From NCBI GenBank assembly GCA_017504435.1, contig JAFVRD010000029.1, forward strand, positions 1-54,115: a stretch of 54,115 nucleotides of DNA. Reading direction: 5' to 3'. The DNA is from Lentisphaeria bacterium (GTDB taxonomy: Bacteria > Verrucomicrobiota > Lentisphaeria > Victivallales > Victivallaceae). This document shows positions 5,739-35,473 of the stretch, piece after piece. Position numbers and translations under genes: made by a program. Positions within the stretch are counted from its first letter, which is position 1, and every line of letters begins with the position of its first letter. The notes under the pieces are model-generated. The model was not told where the DNA came from, ran no database searches, and was given only the letters and a program-made list of their open reading frames with translations.

Positions 5739-5766
5739 TTGCCGGATTAAAATATTGTGTTATATT
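5739..5766 (+). promoter_or_regulatory. Candidate promoter of the first long symporter gene
   Basis: TTGCCG (5739-5744) and TATATT (5761-5766) are separated by 16 bases and lie about 85 bases before the ATG. The same TATATT -10 hexamer recurs at several other gene starts in this window. Confidence 0.5.
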
Positions 5767-5849
5767 CAGTCGTTAACAGTGCAAACGGGGAATTTTTTTA
5801 TCAAAATCACATATAAACACTAACTAAAAAGAAAGGAACACAGAAAATT

Positions 5850-7964
5850 ATGTGGGATCTTGTCGGAGCTGCCATGCGCAGCATCAATCATGAGGGTATG
5901 CAGACACTGGACTGGGTGATCGTCATCGGGATGATCGTATTTCTCATCAGTGTGCTGCTGTATTGCAACCGTTACATGCGTAATGCTGCGGACTTTCTTG
6001 CTGCCAGCCGTTGTGCCGGACGATATGTGCTGAGTATCTCAGAAGGTGTGGCCGGATTTGCGGTGGTTAGTTCAGTGGCGACGTTTGAGTTGTTTTACCA
6101 GGCCGGTTTTGCTTCCCAGTGGTGGAGCATGCTCTCCAGCCCGGTCAATTTGATTCTTTCATTGTTTGCGTGGGTGACTTACCGTTTGCGTGAAACCCGC
6201 TGTTTGACGCTGGCTCAGTTTTATGAGGTTCGTTACAGCCGCAAATTCCGTATCGGAGCCGGTATTTTGACCTGGATATCCGGAGTGGTTAATTACGGTA
6301 TTTTTCCGGCGGTTTCAGTGCGTTTTTTCATGTTCTTCTGCCGTTTCCCGCAGCATTTTGATTTTCTGGGTATCTCTTGGAACACTTATGGTGTGCTGCT
6401 GTTTGTTGCTATCGGCCTGGGGGTATTTTTTGCCACTTGCGGCGGTCAGATCGCCATTATGGTAACTGACTTTATTCAGGGAATTTTATGCAACGTGGCG
6501 TTTGTTGTCTTTATTTTCTTCATTTTCAAGCTCGGTGAATGGGACGTTTCCGGCGGTTATGTTTCATGGAAACAGGTCACAGAAGCTATTTGTATGGAAC
6601 CGGGCATGTCTCAGATCAACCCGTTTGACAGCAACCGGATCGGTGATTTCAATATCTGGTATTTTGTGATCGGTATTCTGGCATCTTTCTACGCCCGCGG
6701 TGCATGGCAGGGCAGTTCCGGTTATGCGGCTGCTGCGAAAAATCCGCATGAACGCAGAATGGCCGGTATTCTCGGAACCTGGCGCGGAATGGCGCAGGGA
6801 TTGATGATCATGCTTTTCCCGCTGGCGGTCATCGTGATCATGAAACACGTCGATTTTGTCCCGCTGAAAGAAGCGATCGAAGCAACGCTCAATAACTCCG
6901 GCGTGAGTGCCCAGTTGAAAGAGCAGGGGCTGGTCACCACGGCTTTGTCACTGATCATGCCTTCCGGTCTGCTGGGATTGTTTGTGGCGGTCATGTTTGC
7001 GGCGATGTTGTCCACCGATGATACTTATATGCACAGCTGGGGCAGTATTTTCATTCAGGACGTGATCATGCCTTTCCGCAAAAAACCGTTTACTCCGCAG
7101 CAGCACATTTGGATGTTGCGTTTCTCCATCATCTTTGTTGGTGTATTTGCATGGTTTTTCAGCTTTTACTTCCCGATGACGGAATATGTTTACATGTTCT
7201 TTGCCATCACCGGTGCCATCGTCAGCGGTGCGGGTGCGGCAATCATCGGTGGACTTTACTGGAAGCGCGGCGGTACGATTGCGGCATGGGTCAGTTATGC
7301 TATCGGAGCATTTCTGGCGGTCAGTGGTATCGTGCTGCAGCAGGTTTGGTATTTGGGCAAAGGCCGCGGTCTGGCTTACTGGCTGGCTGAACACACCGAC
7401 TGGCAGTGGGTCGATGCCAATATCGCCAAAGAGGTGGTCAAGTTTCCGGTCAACGGTCAGTGGATCAATTTCATCTGTATCGTAGCGTGCGTTGTTCTTT
7501 ACATCACGATTTCTCTTGTTGAACACTATGTATTTGGCAAACCGGACTTCAATCTGGATAAAATGCTGCATCGCGGCGAATATGATACCGCCAATGAACA
7601 TATCGAAAAGAGCGAAAAAGTCAGTTGGTTTGCCAAAATGTTCGGTGTTACCAAAGAGTTTACTCTGGGTGATAAACTTATTTATCTGGCGACAATTCTG
7701 TGGACATTCATGTGGTTTGTATTCTTTATCGTATTCACGATTTGGGAGTTTGCTTTCCACGGTGTTTCCAACGAATGGTGGCTGAAGTTGTGGCACTTCA
7801 AAGTTTATCTGACTCTGGTTCTCGGTATCGGCTGTACGTTGTGGTTCCTTATCGGCGGAATCGTGGACGTGGTCGGATTGTTCAAAGCACTGGCGAATTC
7901 GGAACGCAATGACTCCGATGACGGATCAGTGATTGACGGCGCAGTCGCCGGAGAGAAAAAATAA
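5850..7964 (+). CDS. Sodium:solute symporter family protein, long form (copy 1)
   Basis: The 704-residue integral membrane protein belongs to the SSF superfamily of sodium-coupled importers of sugars and other small solutes. It has about thirteen or more hydrophobic segments. The first helix is around residues 20-42 and is followed by the SSF-like RNAADFLAASR segment. Other SSF features are TRCLTLAQFYEVRYSRKFR and the MFAAMLSTDDTYMHSWGS region (usual SSF: AAxMSTxDs). Two extra C-terminal helices flank a cytosolic loop near residues 565-600. It is much longer than typical ~500-residue SSF proteins. A close paralogue follows at 8078. Substrate is unknown. AAAGGA precedes the start, and a strong terminator separates it from the second copy. 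Confidence 0.9.
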   Translation: MWDLVGAAMRSINHEGMQTLDWVIVIGMIVFLISVLLYCNRYMRNAADFLAASRCAGRYVLSISEGVAGFAVVSSVATFELFYQAGFASQWWSMLSSPVNLILSLFAWVTYRLRETRCLTLAQFYEVRYSRKFRIGAGILTWISGVVNYGIFPAVSVRFFMFFCRFPQHFDFLGISWNTYGVLLFVAIGLGVFFATCGGQIAIMVTDFIQGILCNVAFVVFIFFIFKLGEWDVSGGYVSWKQVTEAICMEPGMSQINPFDSNRIGDFNIWYFVIGILASFYARGAWQGSSGYAAAAKNPHERRMAGILGTWRGMAQGLMIMLFPLAVIVIMKHVDFVPLKEAIEATLNNSGVSAQLKEQGLVTTALSLIMPSGLLGLFVAVMFAAMLSTDDTYMHSWGSIFIQDVIMPFRKKPFTPQQHIWMLRFSIIFVGVFAWFFSFYFPMTEYVYMFFAITGAIVSGAGAAIIGGLYWKRGGTIAAWVSYAIGAFLAVSGIVLQQVWYLGKGRGLAYWLAEHTDWQWVDANIAKEVVKFPVNGQWINFICIVACVVLYITISLVEHYVFGKPDFNLDKMLHRGEYDTANEHIEKSEKVSWFAKMFGVTKEFTLGDKLIYLATILWTFMWFVFFIVFTIWEFAFHGVSNEWWLKLWHFKVYLTLVLGIGCTLWFLIGGIVDVVGLFKALANSERNDSDDGSVIDGAVAGEKK

Positions 7965-13343: not shown

Positions 13344-13404
13344 AAAGACTCTGTGCCGAACAAACAGGGATAAAATATCAGCTGATGATTAGATCACCGC
13401 TAAT

Positions 13405-13434
13405 AAAAAACGGATGATAATTTGCAATCATCCG
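13405..13434 (-). terminator. Minus-strand intrinsic terminator
   Basis: Read on the minus strand, CGGATGAT, an 8-base loop and ATCATCCG are followed by six T residues. No minus-strand gene is otherwise known for kilobases. The only transcript it could end is the small minus-strand unit at 13444-13567. There is no T run in the plus direction. Confidence 0.8.
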
Positions 13435-13450
13435 AAATATGTATTATAGT
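13422..13450 (+). promoter_or_regulatory. Candidate promoter of the plus-strand small RNA
   Basis: TTGCAA (13422-13427) and TATAGT (13445-13450) with 17-base spacing place the start at about 13456-13458. That is exactly the first base of the 13-bp closing stem of the proposed RNA. Confidence 0.6.
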
Positions 13451-13509
13451 ATTATGTGTTCAAAATCGGGGAACGCGGAACGCTTTGTACGCAAAATTCT
13501 CCTCTTCAT
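13444..13509 (-). CDS. Candidate 21-codon small ORF, antisense to the small RNA
   Basis: An ATG at 13509 (minus) is preceded by GAGGAG with a 5-base TAATT spacer, an ideal initiation site. It opens 21 codons ending in TAA at 13446-13444. The peptide is strongly basic at its start (MKRRILRTKR) and not clearly hydrophobic. A TATAAT hexamer lies upstream on the minus strand (13567-13562), although its -35 is weak, and an intrinsic terminator follows at 13434-13405. The whole frame lies within the region covered by the plus-strand RNA. Either a real small gene paired with its antisense RNA, or the mirror of an RNA loop that mimics the complement of a ribosome-binding site. Confidence 0.4.
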   Translation of the reverse strand: MKRRILRTKRSAFPDFEHIIL

Positions 13510-13555
13510 AATTACTCCTCAGGGTGTGAGGCGTACCCGGTTTTGAACTTTTTTG
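13457..13555 (+). ncRNA. Candidate structured small RNA with anti-Shine-Dalgarno loop
   Basis: A good promoter (TTGCAA-17-TATAGT) is followed by a segment whose ends form a 13-bp stem: 13458-13470 pairs with 13536-13548 with one G-U. The 3' arm is immediately followed by six T residues, as in an intrinsic terminator. Inside are a tandem GGAACGC repeat, a small hairpin (13517-13521 with 13527-13531) and two CUCCUC motifs. The stretch 13504-13522 is the exact complement of a GAGGAG-TAATT-ATG-AAG initiation region. It matches no RNA family I know. It could be a trans- or cis-acting regulatory RNA, or a leader/attenuator for the esterase gene that starts 34 bases later. Confidence 0.6.
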
Positions 13556-13588
13556 TGTCAGATTATAAAACGGACCTAAGGAGGACGT

Positions 13589-14959: not shown

Positions 14960-15955
14960 ATGATGGAAACAGATAAAACACTGGTCTTGATCGATGCATA
15001 CAGTCAGATATTCCGGGCATTTTACGCGATCCGGTCATTGACCAATGCCAAAGGAGAACCGGTCAATGCAGCATTTGTTTTTACCAAGCTGCTGTTGAAA
15101 CTGGAGCAATTGTATCCGTCATCAGCCGGAGCGATGTTGTTTGACTGCGGTAAAGTTGCATTCCGGACGGAAATATTGCCGGAATACAAAGCAAACCGTC
15201 CGCCGATGCCGGATGATTTGAAACGGCAGATGCCGCTTATCAAACATATTGCAGATGCATTCGGCTGGCAGTTGTTTCAGCATGAAAATTGGGAGGCAGA
15301 TGATCTTATCGGCGGATTTGCCGGTAAATACACCTCTTATCAGGTTCAAATAGTCAGCTCAGATAAAGATCTTTCTCAATTGGTAGATGACCGGGTCGTG
15401 ATGCTGGTACCCTCCGCATCCGGATTTGAAAAGCGCGGCAAAGCTGAAGTCACCGCAAAATTCGGAGTCGCACCGGAATTGATCGTGGATTATCTGGCAT
15501 TGCTCGGTGATGCCTCGGACAATATTCCCGGAGTGCCGGGAATCGGGCCGAAAAGTGCGGTTGAGCTGCTCAATACTTTCGGCGCTGCCGCAAATTGGCT
15601 CAACACACCGGAAAAGCTGGCTGACAGCAAATACAGTAAGAAGTTGTTTGCCCATTTGGATAAACTTGCCAAAAACCGTGAACTGATCCGTTTGAAAACT
15701 GTTTTGCCGCCGGATTTTGATCTTCCTGAACCTCCGGAGAGAAGAACTCCCGATTGGCAGGAGATCGGTCGGATTTGCCGGGAAAATCAATTTAAAAGCA
15801 TTCTCAAAGATTTACCGGAAAAAGAAGTCGTTCCGGCAGTTGATGTTTCTGATGAAGATGATTTGTTCGCTTTTGCAGCAGTACAGAAATGTGCAAAAAT
15901 GGAAAAAGGGTCTCCAGAAGCCAACGATGATGTCCGGCAGTTGGAACTTTTTTAA
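14960..15955 (+). CDS. Stand-alone 5'-3' exonuclease (FEN/Pol I N-domain family)
   Basis: The 331-residue protein corresponds to the N-terminal 5' nuclease domain of DNA polymerase I, without proofreading or polymerase domains. Seen are LVLIDAYSQIFRAFYAIR at the start, the arch segment FRTEILPEYKANRPPMP, the metal-binding EADDLI region, SSDKDLSQLV, and the helix-three-turn-helix LLGDASDNIPGVPGIGPKSA (~179-198). The last ~60 residues are an acidic, non-conserved tail. It would process flaps or RNA primers. It begins nine bases after the esterase stop, with an ATG-ATG start and only a weak ribosome-binding site. Confidence 0.88.
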   Translation: MMETDKTLVLIDAYSQIFRAFYAIRSLTNAKGEPVNAAFVFTKLLLKLEQLYPSSAGAMLFDCGKVAFRTEILPEYKANRPPMPDDLKRQMPLIKHIADAFGWQLFQHENWEADDLIGGFAGKYTSYQVQIVSSDKDLSQLVDDRVVMLVPSASGFEKRGKAEVTAKFGVAPELIVDYLALLGDASDNIPGVPGIGPKSAVELLNTFGAAANWLNTPEKLADSKYSKKLFAHLDKLAKNRELIRLKTVLPPDFDLPEPPERRTPDWQEIGRICRENQFKSILKDLPEKEVVPAVDVSDEDDLFAFAAVQKCAKMEKGSPEANDDVRQLELF

Positions 15956-18784: not shown

Positions 18785-18900
18785 CGCTGTGAAACGGACC
18801 CTGTGTGTTGTCTGAAACGCCAACCGGGTCAGGTGGGGAACCAAGCAGCCCTACGCGATTTCCGACAGGCCACAGGTAATCTGTTTCACGGCATTTTTTT
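18785..18900 (+). ncRNA. ffs: Signal recognition particle RNA, small bacterial type, with terminator
   Basis: The conserved SRP domain IV is present: GGTCAGG (18827-18833), GGAA, AAGCAGCC (ending 18850). This is the Ffh-binding hairpin. The ends pair: GCTGTGAAAC (18787-18796) with GTTTCACGGC (18883-18892), followed by nine T residues that give a natural terminator. Length (~105 nt) fits 4.5S-type RNA without an Alu domain. It works with Ffh and FtsY to target membrane proteins. It lies between accD and rph. Confidence 0.93.
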
Positions 18901-30412: not shown

Positions 30413-30440
30413 TTGAAATTAAATGCAAACGTGATATATT
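30413..30440 (+). promoter_or_regulatory. Candidate promoter of the leader unit upstream of the GH106-like gene
   Basis: TTGAAA (30413-30418) and TATATT (30435-30440), 16-base spacing, predict a transcript starting near 30447. The hexamers match those at 15967-15995. Confidence 0.55.
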
Positions 30441-30483
30441 ATACCTCGGAGTAAAAATTACTTTAGCGTACTGAGGAGTAATT

Positions 30484-30600
30484 GTGAAGCCCGTCCGCCG
30501 GAAAAGAGGAGTTCCGGCGGACGGGCGGCGGGGAATTTTATGCCATTTTTCAATCCTGTTGTTTGTAATTTTTTTTCTGAGGCGGTATATTAACCGCTGA
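30484..30600 (+). CDS. Candidate 38-residue basic membrane peptide or structured leader
   Basis: GAGGAG (30473-30478), spacer TAATT and a GTG at 30484 form a good initiation site opening 38 codons to TGA 30598-30600. The peptide would have a very basic N-terminal half (KPVRRKRGV..GRRG) and a hydrophobic C-terminal segment (HFSILLFVIFFLRRYINR), the layout of small membrane-acting peptides. Just after the start lies a 12-bp perfect hairpin (arms ~30489-30500 and 30513-30524) whose loop carries a second GAGGAG. AATTACT (30456-30462) can pair with AGTAATT (30477-30483) and mask the ribosome-binding site. It could be a regulated small gene or only a structured leader RNA. Confidence 0.35.
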   Translation: MKPVRRKRGVPADGRRGILCHFSILLFVIFFLRRYINR

Positions 30601-34496: not shown

Positions 34497-34844
34497 TTAC
34501 ATAAACAACACATCTTCCGGCAAATCAACTTCTGCAAGCGCAAGCGATGTATTGTAGTTACTTTGTTCAAGTGATGTCATGTCTGCCAACGCCAGCATGT
34601 CCGCACCCTGACTGATGCTTTTAGTGGTGTTTGGTGTTTTTGAGGGCATATTCGTCCAGAATGAGACTCCGGCAACCGCAATTACTGCCGCTGCCGCCGC
34701 TGACGGAATATAAATACGCAGCTGCCGGCGGCGGGCGCGGAATCTTTTGGCTCGCAATGCTGCGACCGCCAGAATCCTCTGATCCAGCGCAGAAGATATT
34801 TCCAAATTTTCATTTGGAGCAAAGAGACGCAAGAACTTTTTCAC
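34497..34844 (-). CDS. Small single-pass membrane protein, probable anti-sigma partner
   Basis: The 115-residue protein has a basic cytosolic N-terminal part (~1-45, rich in Arg), one transmembrane helix (~47-65, YIPSAAAAAVIAVAGVSFW) and a short extracytoplasmic tail. It starts with GTG overlapping the TGA of the sigma factor gene (GTGA), with AGGAGG upstream. This tight coupling plus topology is the usual arrangement of a membrane-bound anti-sigma factor. A recognisable zinc-binding anti-sigma motif (HxxxCxxC) is absent, so the assignment rests on context. Confidence 0.6.
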   Translation of the reverse strand: MKKFLRLFAPNENLEISSALDQRILAVAALRAKRFRARRRQLRIYIPSAAAAAVIAVAGVSFWTNMPSKTPNTTKSISQGADMLALADMTSLEQSNYNTSLALAEVDLPEDVLFM

Positions 34845-35473
34845 TTCAATAATCCTCCTGTATCAATCTCTGTCAAAAAAAGTCTCAATTTTTTCAGAGC
34901 ATATCTCATTCTGCTTAAAACAGTTCCCAGAGAACACTCTTGAATATCCGCAATTTCCCTGAATGAGAGTTCCTGTTCCTCTCTCAGCAGAAAAACCTCT
35001 TTTTGTTCCGGACTCAATGTTTCCAATGCCCGGTTTATCATCACTCTTATATCCCGGTTGCCGACATCCTTTTCCGGAGAAAATTCCGTAACAGCCTCAT
35101 CCTGCACGTTTTCCGCATCCTTATCAGCCAGCAGCGCCGGTTTGTTTTTCCGCAAACGGTCAATAAAAATATTTCTCGCTATCCGGAACAGCCATGCACT
35201 GAATTTGCCGTCATCACGGTATTTGGAGGCTTTTTCGATTACCCGCAGCCATGTCTCCTCAAACACTTCATCGACTTCATGAGGATTGTTGATCCCCATG
35301 TTGTTCAGGTAGCTGAACAGCAAATTCCGATACCGGTAATACAACAGTTCAAAAGACTTTTCATCACCATTGCAAAACGCTTTGAGCAATTCCGCATCTC
35401 CGGGTAAATTATCCCCGGCAGCATCTGTTCGCGTTTCCGCAGCAGTGTTAAATTTTTTCTTTCTTTCAAACAT
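34841..35473 (-). CDS. RNA polymerase sigma factor, ECF type
   Basis: The 210-residue sigma70-family protein has region 2 (~30-105: ELLYYRYRNLLFSYL, DEVFEETWLRVIEKASKYRDDGKFSAWLFRIARNIFIDRLR) and region 4 (~150-200: LSPEQKEVFLLREEQELSFREIADIQECSLGTVLSRMRYALKKLR). Regions 1 and 3 are missing, as in ECF sigma factors. The first gene of a three-gene operon with a membrane protein and a lipoprotein, suggesting control by an envelope signal. No strong Shine-Dalgarno is seen before the ATG at 35473. Autoregulation is likely by analogy only. Confidence 0.92.
   Translation of the reverse strand: MFERKKKFNTAAETRTDAAGDNLPGDAELLKAFCNGDEKSFELLYYRYRNLLFSYLNNMGINNPHEVDEVFEETWLRVIEKASKYRDDGKFSAWLFRIARNIFIDRLRKNKPALLADKDAENVQDEAVTEFSPEKDVGNRDIRVMINRALETLSPEQKEVFLLREEQELSFREIADIQECSLGTVLSRMRYALKKLRLFLTEIDTGGLLK

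Follow-up and report, generated by a model that had tools for sequence, protein, structure and literature searches.

The intergenic segment studied here, which lies in a 54,115-nt stretch of Lentisphaeria DNA (the window), raises the question of whether it holds two overlapping small genes on opposite strands, as the original prediction proposed. The RNA on the plus strand, here called RNA A, is real and the peptide gene on the minus strand is not. The plus-strand elements named in the original prediction (TTGCAA-17-TATAGT, a 13-bp stem and a T6 run) are all present and are backed by the fold and by 51 homologues. They are located as follows.

13422-13450, plus strand: promoter of RNA A, sigma70-type, TTGCAA (13422-13427), 17 nt, TATAGT (13445-13450); from scan and homologues
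13453-13555, plus strand: RNA A, a hairpin sRNA of about 100 nt with the U-tract of its terminator; from covariance model, fold and covariation, exact ends predicted
13458-13470, plus strand: 5' arm of the 13-bp basal stem; from fold and covariation
13536-13548, plus strand: 3' arm of the 13-bp basal stem, then T6 (intrinsic terminator); from fold, covariation and U-tails of homologues

Folding of RNA A as a single sequence gave -34.0 kcal/mol, compared with -22.6 ± 3.3 kcal/mol for shuffled sequences (z = -3.4). By themselves, promoter matches (7 vs. 3.8 expected) and terminator matches (2 vs. 1.9 expected) are within chance, and the promoter and terminator of RNA A are judged to be above chance because they are conserved in homologues, not from scan counts. 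Just upstream of RNA A, 45 of 51 homologues have a -10 box with at least 5 of 6 matching positions and 33 of 51 have a -35 box with at least 4 of 6; a U-rich tail follows the RNA in 49 of 51. An 8-bp dyad at window positions 13411-13434, which is not conserved, carries the -35 box of RNA A inside its loop and is a possible operator.

A DNA search revealed the RNA A locus in 19 of 60 genomes, and a covariance model (R1) built from the sequences of these 19 genomes matched RNA A in the window with 79.5 bits (E = 1.9e-15). With this model RNA A was detected in 51 of 149 relatives, mostly as a single copy per genome; all of them belong to one family, the Victivallaceae, and include Victivallis vadensis, and among 198 genomes of the class no match was obtained outside that family. 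Among 84,980 species genomes, the exact 24-nt loop sequence TTCTCCTCTTCAYAATTACTCCTC occurs in 33 contigs, every one of them from Lentisphaerota; Victivallis vadensis DSM 14823, a gut bacterium available in culture, is one of the carriers, and a search of viral contigs gave no match. One contig (L097, G071:C17) contains two similar copies of RNA A at 196-289 and 5760-5853, 5.5 kb apart, and both lack 4 nt of the loop spacer.

Compensatory stem changes in relatives, which had been suggested as a check on the RNA, are abundant, and all 22 stem pairs in the alignment of 51 sequences show changes on both sides. Standard pairs fill 85.6% of the cells of the stem. Shuffles reach 62.6%, and sliding the partner yields no more than 45%. 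The alignment behind these figures is fitted to the model, which favours them; individual folds give the same hairpin. The basal helix contains 39 G.U cells compared with 12 A.C cells, and since G.U exceeds A.C it is the plus strand that forms the structured, functional RNA. When RNA A was compared with Rfam 15, including the anti-Shine-Dalgarno (anti-SD) sRNA families contained there, no family reached its gathering score and only chance-level matches (E up to 5) were obtained, so that the original expectation of a structured RNA without a matching family was borne out. RNA A is a small RNA that had not been described before and that is conserved within one family of gut bacteria. The sole match to Rfam at gathering score in the window is a bacterial small SRP RNA (RF00169) at 18792-18889 on the plus strand.

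Whereas the stem of RNA A varies freely in sequence among the 51 homologues, its apical loop is near-constant and has the following parts.

13488-13520, plus strand: apical loop of about 33 nt, nearly invariant and unpaired in the predicted fold; from folds and alignment
13499-13504, plus strand: first anti-SD motif, CUCCUC, near-invariant in 51 homologues
13515-13520, plus strand: second anti-SD motif, CUCCUC, near-invariant in 51 homologues
13504-13520, plus strand: 17-nt stretch complementary to a second RNA (RNA B, below), covering SD, spacer, start codon and second codon; best trans hybrid in the window

The anti-SD motifs of the loop read UUCUCCUCUUCAUAAUUACUCCUC, and the spacer between the two CUCCUC motifs varies more than the motifs themselves. 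The complement of the loop is GAGGAG-UAAUU-AUG-AAG-AGGAG, that is, a Shine-Dalgarno sequence and a start codon. Except in the most divergent copy (L104), the triplet that faces the start codon reads CAU, CAC or CAA, complementary to AUG, GUG or UUG; copy L084, which was missed by the triplet pattern, retains CAU. In G071 and G017, SD and start are only 1-2 nt apart. Because complements of valid start codons are kept while spacing and frame vary, the loop appears to be selected for pairing with translation starts and not for an open reading frame. Properties by which an anti-SD sRNA is recognised were found in RNA A: two conserved CUCCUC motifs in a loop predicted to be single-stranded and, as far as sequence can tell, a free-standing unit with its own promoter and Rho-independent terminator.

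On the minus strand, the signals of the predicted peptide gene are literally present, with a TATAAT (13567-13562), GAGGAG-TAATT-ATG, a 21-codon open reading frame and the following stem.

13405-13434, minus strand: terminator-like 8-bp stem with T6; present here, not conserved, serving no gene

As a conserved gene they did not hold up. No -35 box passing the scan accompanies the TATAAT, the T-tailed stem is absent in the relatives inspected, and no conserved promoter or terminator was found on this strand. Codon conservation, which was to support the peptide, failed likewise: the frame ranges from 1 to 55 codons across homologues, with frameshifting indels right after MKRR, it is reduced to 'M*' in one genome, and the basic peptide is without constraint beyond the complement of the loop. 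For these reasons the minus-strand peptide gene was rejected. The GAGGAG...ATG block is the complement, or 'shadow', of the conserved RNA A loop, and it is because of this complementarity that a gene seems to be present.

When this genome was searched for the complement of the loop, one near-perfect site besides RNA A was returned, at 30473-30489 and 17 kb away; it belongs to RNA B.

30413-30525, plus strand: RNA B element, predicted RNA about 30441-30525 and downstream; from sequence
30413-30440, plus strand: putative promoter of RNA B, TTGAAA (30413-30418), 16 nt, TATATT (30435-30440); similar TTGANN/TATANT boxes in several relatives
30473-30489, plus strand: pairing segment GAGGAGUAAUUGUGAAG, 17 nt that complement the RNA A loop, one pair being G.U; from complement search and hybrid
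30490-30525, plus strand: GC-rich hairpin with loop AAGAGGAG; the hairpin is kept despite sequence change among members

In the 54-kb window no other trans hybrid of the RNA A loop is as strong as that with RNA B, at -35.6 kcal/mol. The runner-up reaches -28.7 kcal/mol, and the loop paired with the 28 gene starts in the window gave a mean of -12.7 ± 4.0 kcal/mol; these energies cover the window, and the rest of the genome was covered by pattern search. The RNA B hairpin has a 14-bp stem, and its loop AAGAGGAG could contact the first CUCCUC of RNA A. The original prediction of a sense/antisense layout stood insofar as the sRNA faces a complementary RNA with an SD and a start, but this partner is encoded 17 kb away and not on the opposite strand.

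Exact 17-nt partners are present in six genomes of the genus (G000, G001 with two, G015, G019, G025 and G033), and in every case a GC hairpin directly follows the pairing segment. A reading tolerant of mismatches and a model of segment plus hairpin add RNA B in G032, G010, G020, G012, G028 and probably G008, and RNA B-like elements occur in other genera of Victivallaceae (G064, G096 and, more loosely, G089). RNA B is thereby found in about a dozen of 34 genomes of the genus and in a few Victivallis, and many genomes with RNA A have no detectable RNA B. Complementarity between the two RNAs extends over 17-20 nt in several genomes. Matched changes amount to two, one in G015 (CAC in RNA A, GUG in RNA B) and one in G010 (AAUAACUCCUC in RNA A, GAGGAGUUAU in RNA B), and mismatches between the two RNAs occur in G012, G020, G028 and G010. 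Double changes affect 10 of 10 pairs of the RNA B hairpin, a supportive but not independent figure, as members were picked for having the hairpin and their loops were shortened manually.

The peptides that would be read from the RNA B start codon are unrelated or truncated among its members, and on these grounds a hydrophobic toxin in its 38-codon frame (ending CHFSILLFVIFFLRRYINR) was rejected. Extended complementarity to the seed and, in several members, promoter-like boxes of its own give RNA B, as far as sequence can tell, the properties of a sponge. RNA B is the best candidate partner of RNA A in this genome and probably a sponge. Many RNA B hairpin loops (the region set L032, L044, L119, L121, L144 and L139) carry a C-run, UCCCC or longer, and others carry (G)UCAAGC, which suggests sub-types with a loop function of their own. 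Contig L105 (G001:C2) contains two copies of RNA B, 6.5 kb apart, which share a block of about 250 bp with 94% identity and differ in their hairpins; the common block stops soon after the pairing segment, as if promoter and segment had been duplicated and the hairpin replaced.

An mRNA target of RNA A common to the whole genus was not found, and the two genes tested both fail. In the relatives checked, the start region of argC, the second-best hybrid site in the window, is unlike the complement of the loop. The other gene, which is anti-sigma-like and follows an ECF sigma gene, shows 17-18 nt of complementarity to the RNA A loop in G014, G013 and G011 and has a similar start in G024, sharing an extra nucleotide found in the RNA A loop of that clade; most of the genus has an unrelated sequence around the start of this gene, which makes it a clade-specific target at best. 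The window itself carries, at 34497-35473 on the minus strand, an ECF sigma gene present in one copy and, after it, the gene of a short membrane protein resembling its anti-sigma factor.

From these data we consider it fairly probable that RNA A is a trans-acting sRNA which blocks translation starts, with RNA B as its target or, more likely, as its decoy (sponge). Transcribed from its own promoter, RNA A would form a long hairpin that holds open a single loop antisense to a translation initiation region, in which two CUCCUC anti-SD motifs flank the complement of a start codon (CAU, CAC or CAA). We infer that this loop would pair with RNAs showing GAGGAG-N5-(A/G/U)UG and that pairing would cover SD and start codon, so that ribosome binding would be blocked or RNA decay triggered. 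RNA B, a mimic of SD and start beside a GC hairpin, would soak up RNA A as a decoy, a role made probable by the lack of conservation in the peptide it encodes.

Silencing by covering SD and start is proposed by analogy with AbcR1/AbcR2 and NfeR1 of alpha-rhizobia, trans-acting sRNAs with more than one anti-SD motif per RNA, which are exposed (aSD1, CUCCUCCC, in a hairpin loop) and block ribosome binding (PMC8844928). RNA A resembles them in its short, exposed anti-SD motifs, more than one per RNA, but it belongs to another phylum and has another architecture, with both motifs and the start-codon complement within the single loop of a long terminator hairpin. The decoy role of RNA B is proposed by analogy with RosA and CrfA. 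In Bacillus subtilis, the C-rich pairing regions of RoxS and FsrA are faced by the complementary, G-rich, stand-alone sponge RosA (PMC8216469). RNA B likewise is a stand-alone complementary RNA opposite an sRNA; unlike RosA it mimics a whole SD/start-codon region and has a GC hairpin. The likeness is one of layout, with no kinship in sequence expected, and the sponge role is putative. In Caulobacter, the sRNAs SisA-D are countered by the dedicated sponge CrfA, which masks their mRNA-pairing site (PMC12559287), as RNA B putatively does for RNA A; those RNAs were recovered on Hfq, whereas no Hfq could be identified in the genome studied here.

Only tentatively do we go further and envisage a two-RNA system dedicated to the Victivallaceae, in which a generic anti-start sRNA would silence many starts and would be titrated by co-evolving RNA B mimics of start sites, without Hfq. 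In the literature searched no regulatory sRNA of Lentisphaerota is described, the structured-RNA motif Acido-Lenti-1 being the only entry (PMC2864571), and RNA A and RNA B offer a specific circuit of regulation, open to experiment, in a phylum about whose RNA biology hardly anything has been described.

Another explanation starts from the neighbourhood of RNA A, where one gene recurs.

14960-15955, plus strand: stand-alone 5'-3' exonuclease gene (exo, PF02739/PF01367), downstream of RNA A

RNA A would then act chiefly in cis, as a leader or attenuator of exo, the terminator hairpin governing read-through. It lies on the same strand and just upstream of exo in 40 of 51 homologues, and the gap, often 14-30 nt, leaves no space for a second promoter. 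However, at least five homologues, from several genera, have a convergent gene after RNA A, so that these copies have nothing to control in cis, and an esterase gene separates RNA A from exo in G000 and G033; RNA A is not always upstream of and co-directional with exo, as a cis leader would be, and its sequence conservation sits in the loop and not in the terminator stem. The copies facing convergent genes show that RNA A does not need exo; because of them a pure leader function was demoted, and we find it rather unlikely. Where the gap is 14-30 nt, RNA A likely has a role in exo expression, and exo may depend on read-through of the RNA A terminator.

Alternatively, the loop might be a binding site for a protein, for example a pyrimidine-binding protein, which RNA A would sequester or by which it would be stabilised, and the match to RNA B would be due to chance or descent. 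The loop is indeed conserved far beyond the need of a seed with many targets, and the search for a conserved mRNA target came back empty. Complementarity of 17-20 nt to RNA B in several genomes, the two matched changes and the valid start codons that loop variants still complement make this explanation distinctly unlikely. A reversal of roles, with RNA B as regulator and RNA A as its sponge, or mutual antagonism of the two without mRNA targets, would fit the C-runs (UCCCCC) often presented by RNA B hairpin loops, which could touch SD sequences; RNA A is much more widespread and conserved than RNA B, and we hold such a reversal to be very unlikely.

In type I toxin-antitoxin loci such as ibs/sib, a small hydrophobic peptide gene and an antisense RNA form a sense/antisense pair. 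The locus of RNA A has this layout at first sight, with SD, spacer, start codon, open reading frame and T-tailed stem on the minus strand and a start position that nearly every homologue keeps as ATG, GTG or TTG. A toxin of 21 residues with RNA A as its antisense RNA is nevertheless hardly credible and largely refuted, as no conserved, hydrophobic peptide lies opposite the RNA, the frame and the SD spacing are unstable, and the partner is encoded in trans. The locus instead represents a clear case in which the conserved loop of an sRNA casts a false small gene on the opposite strand.
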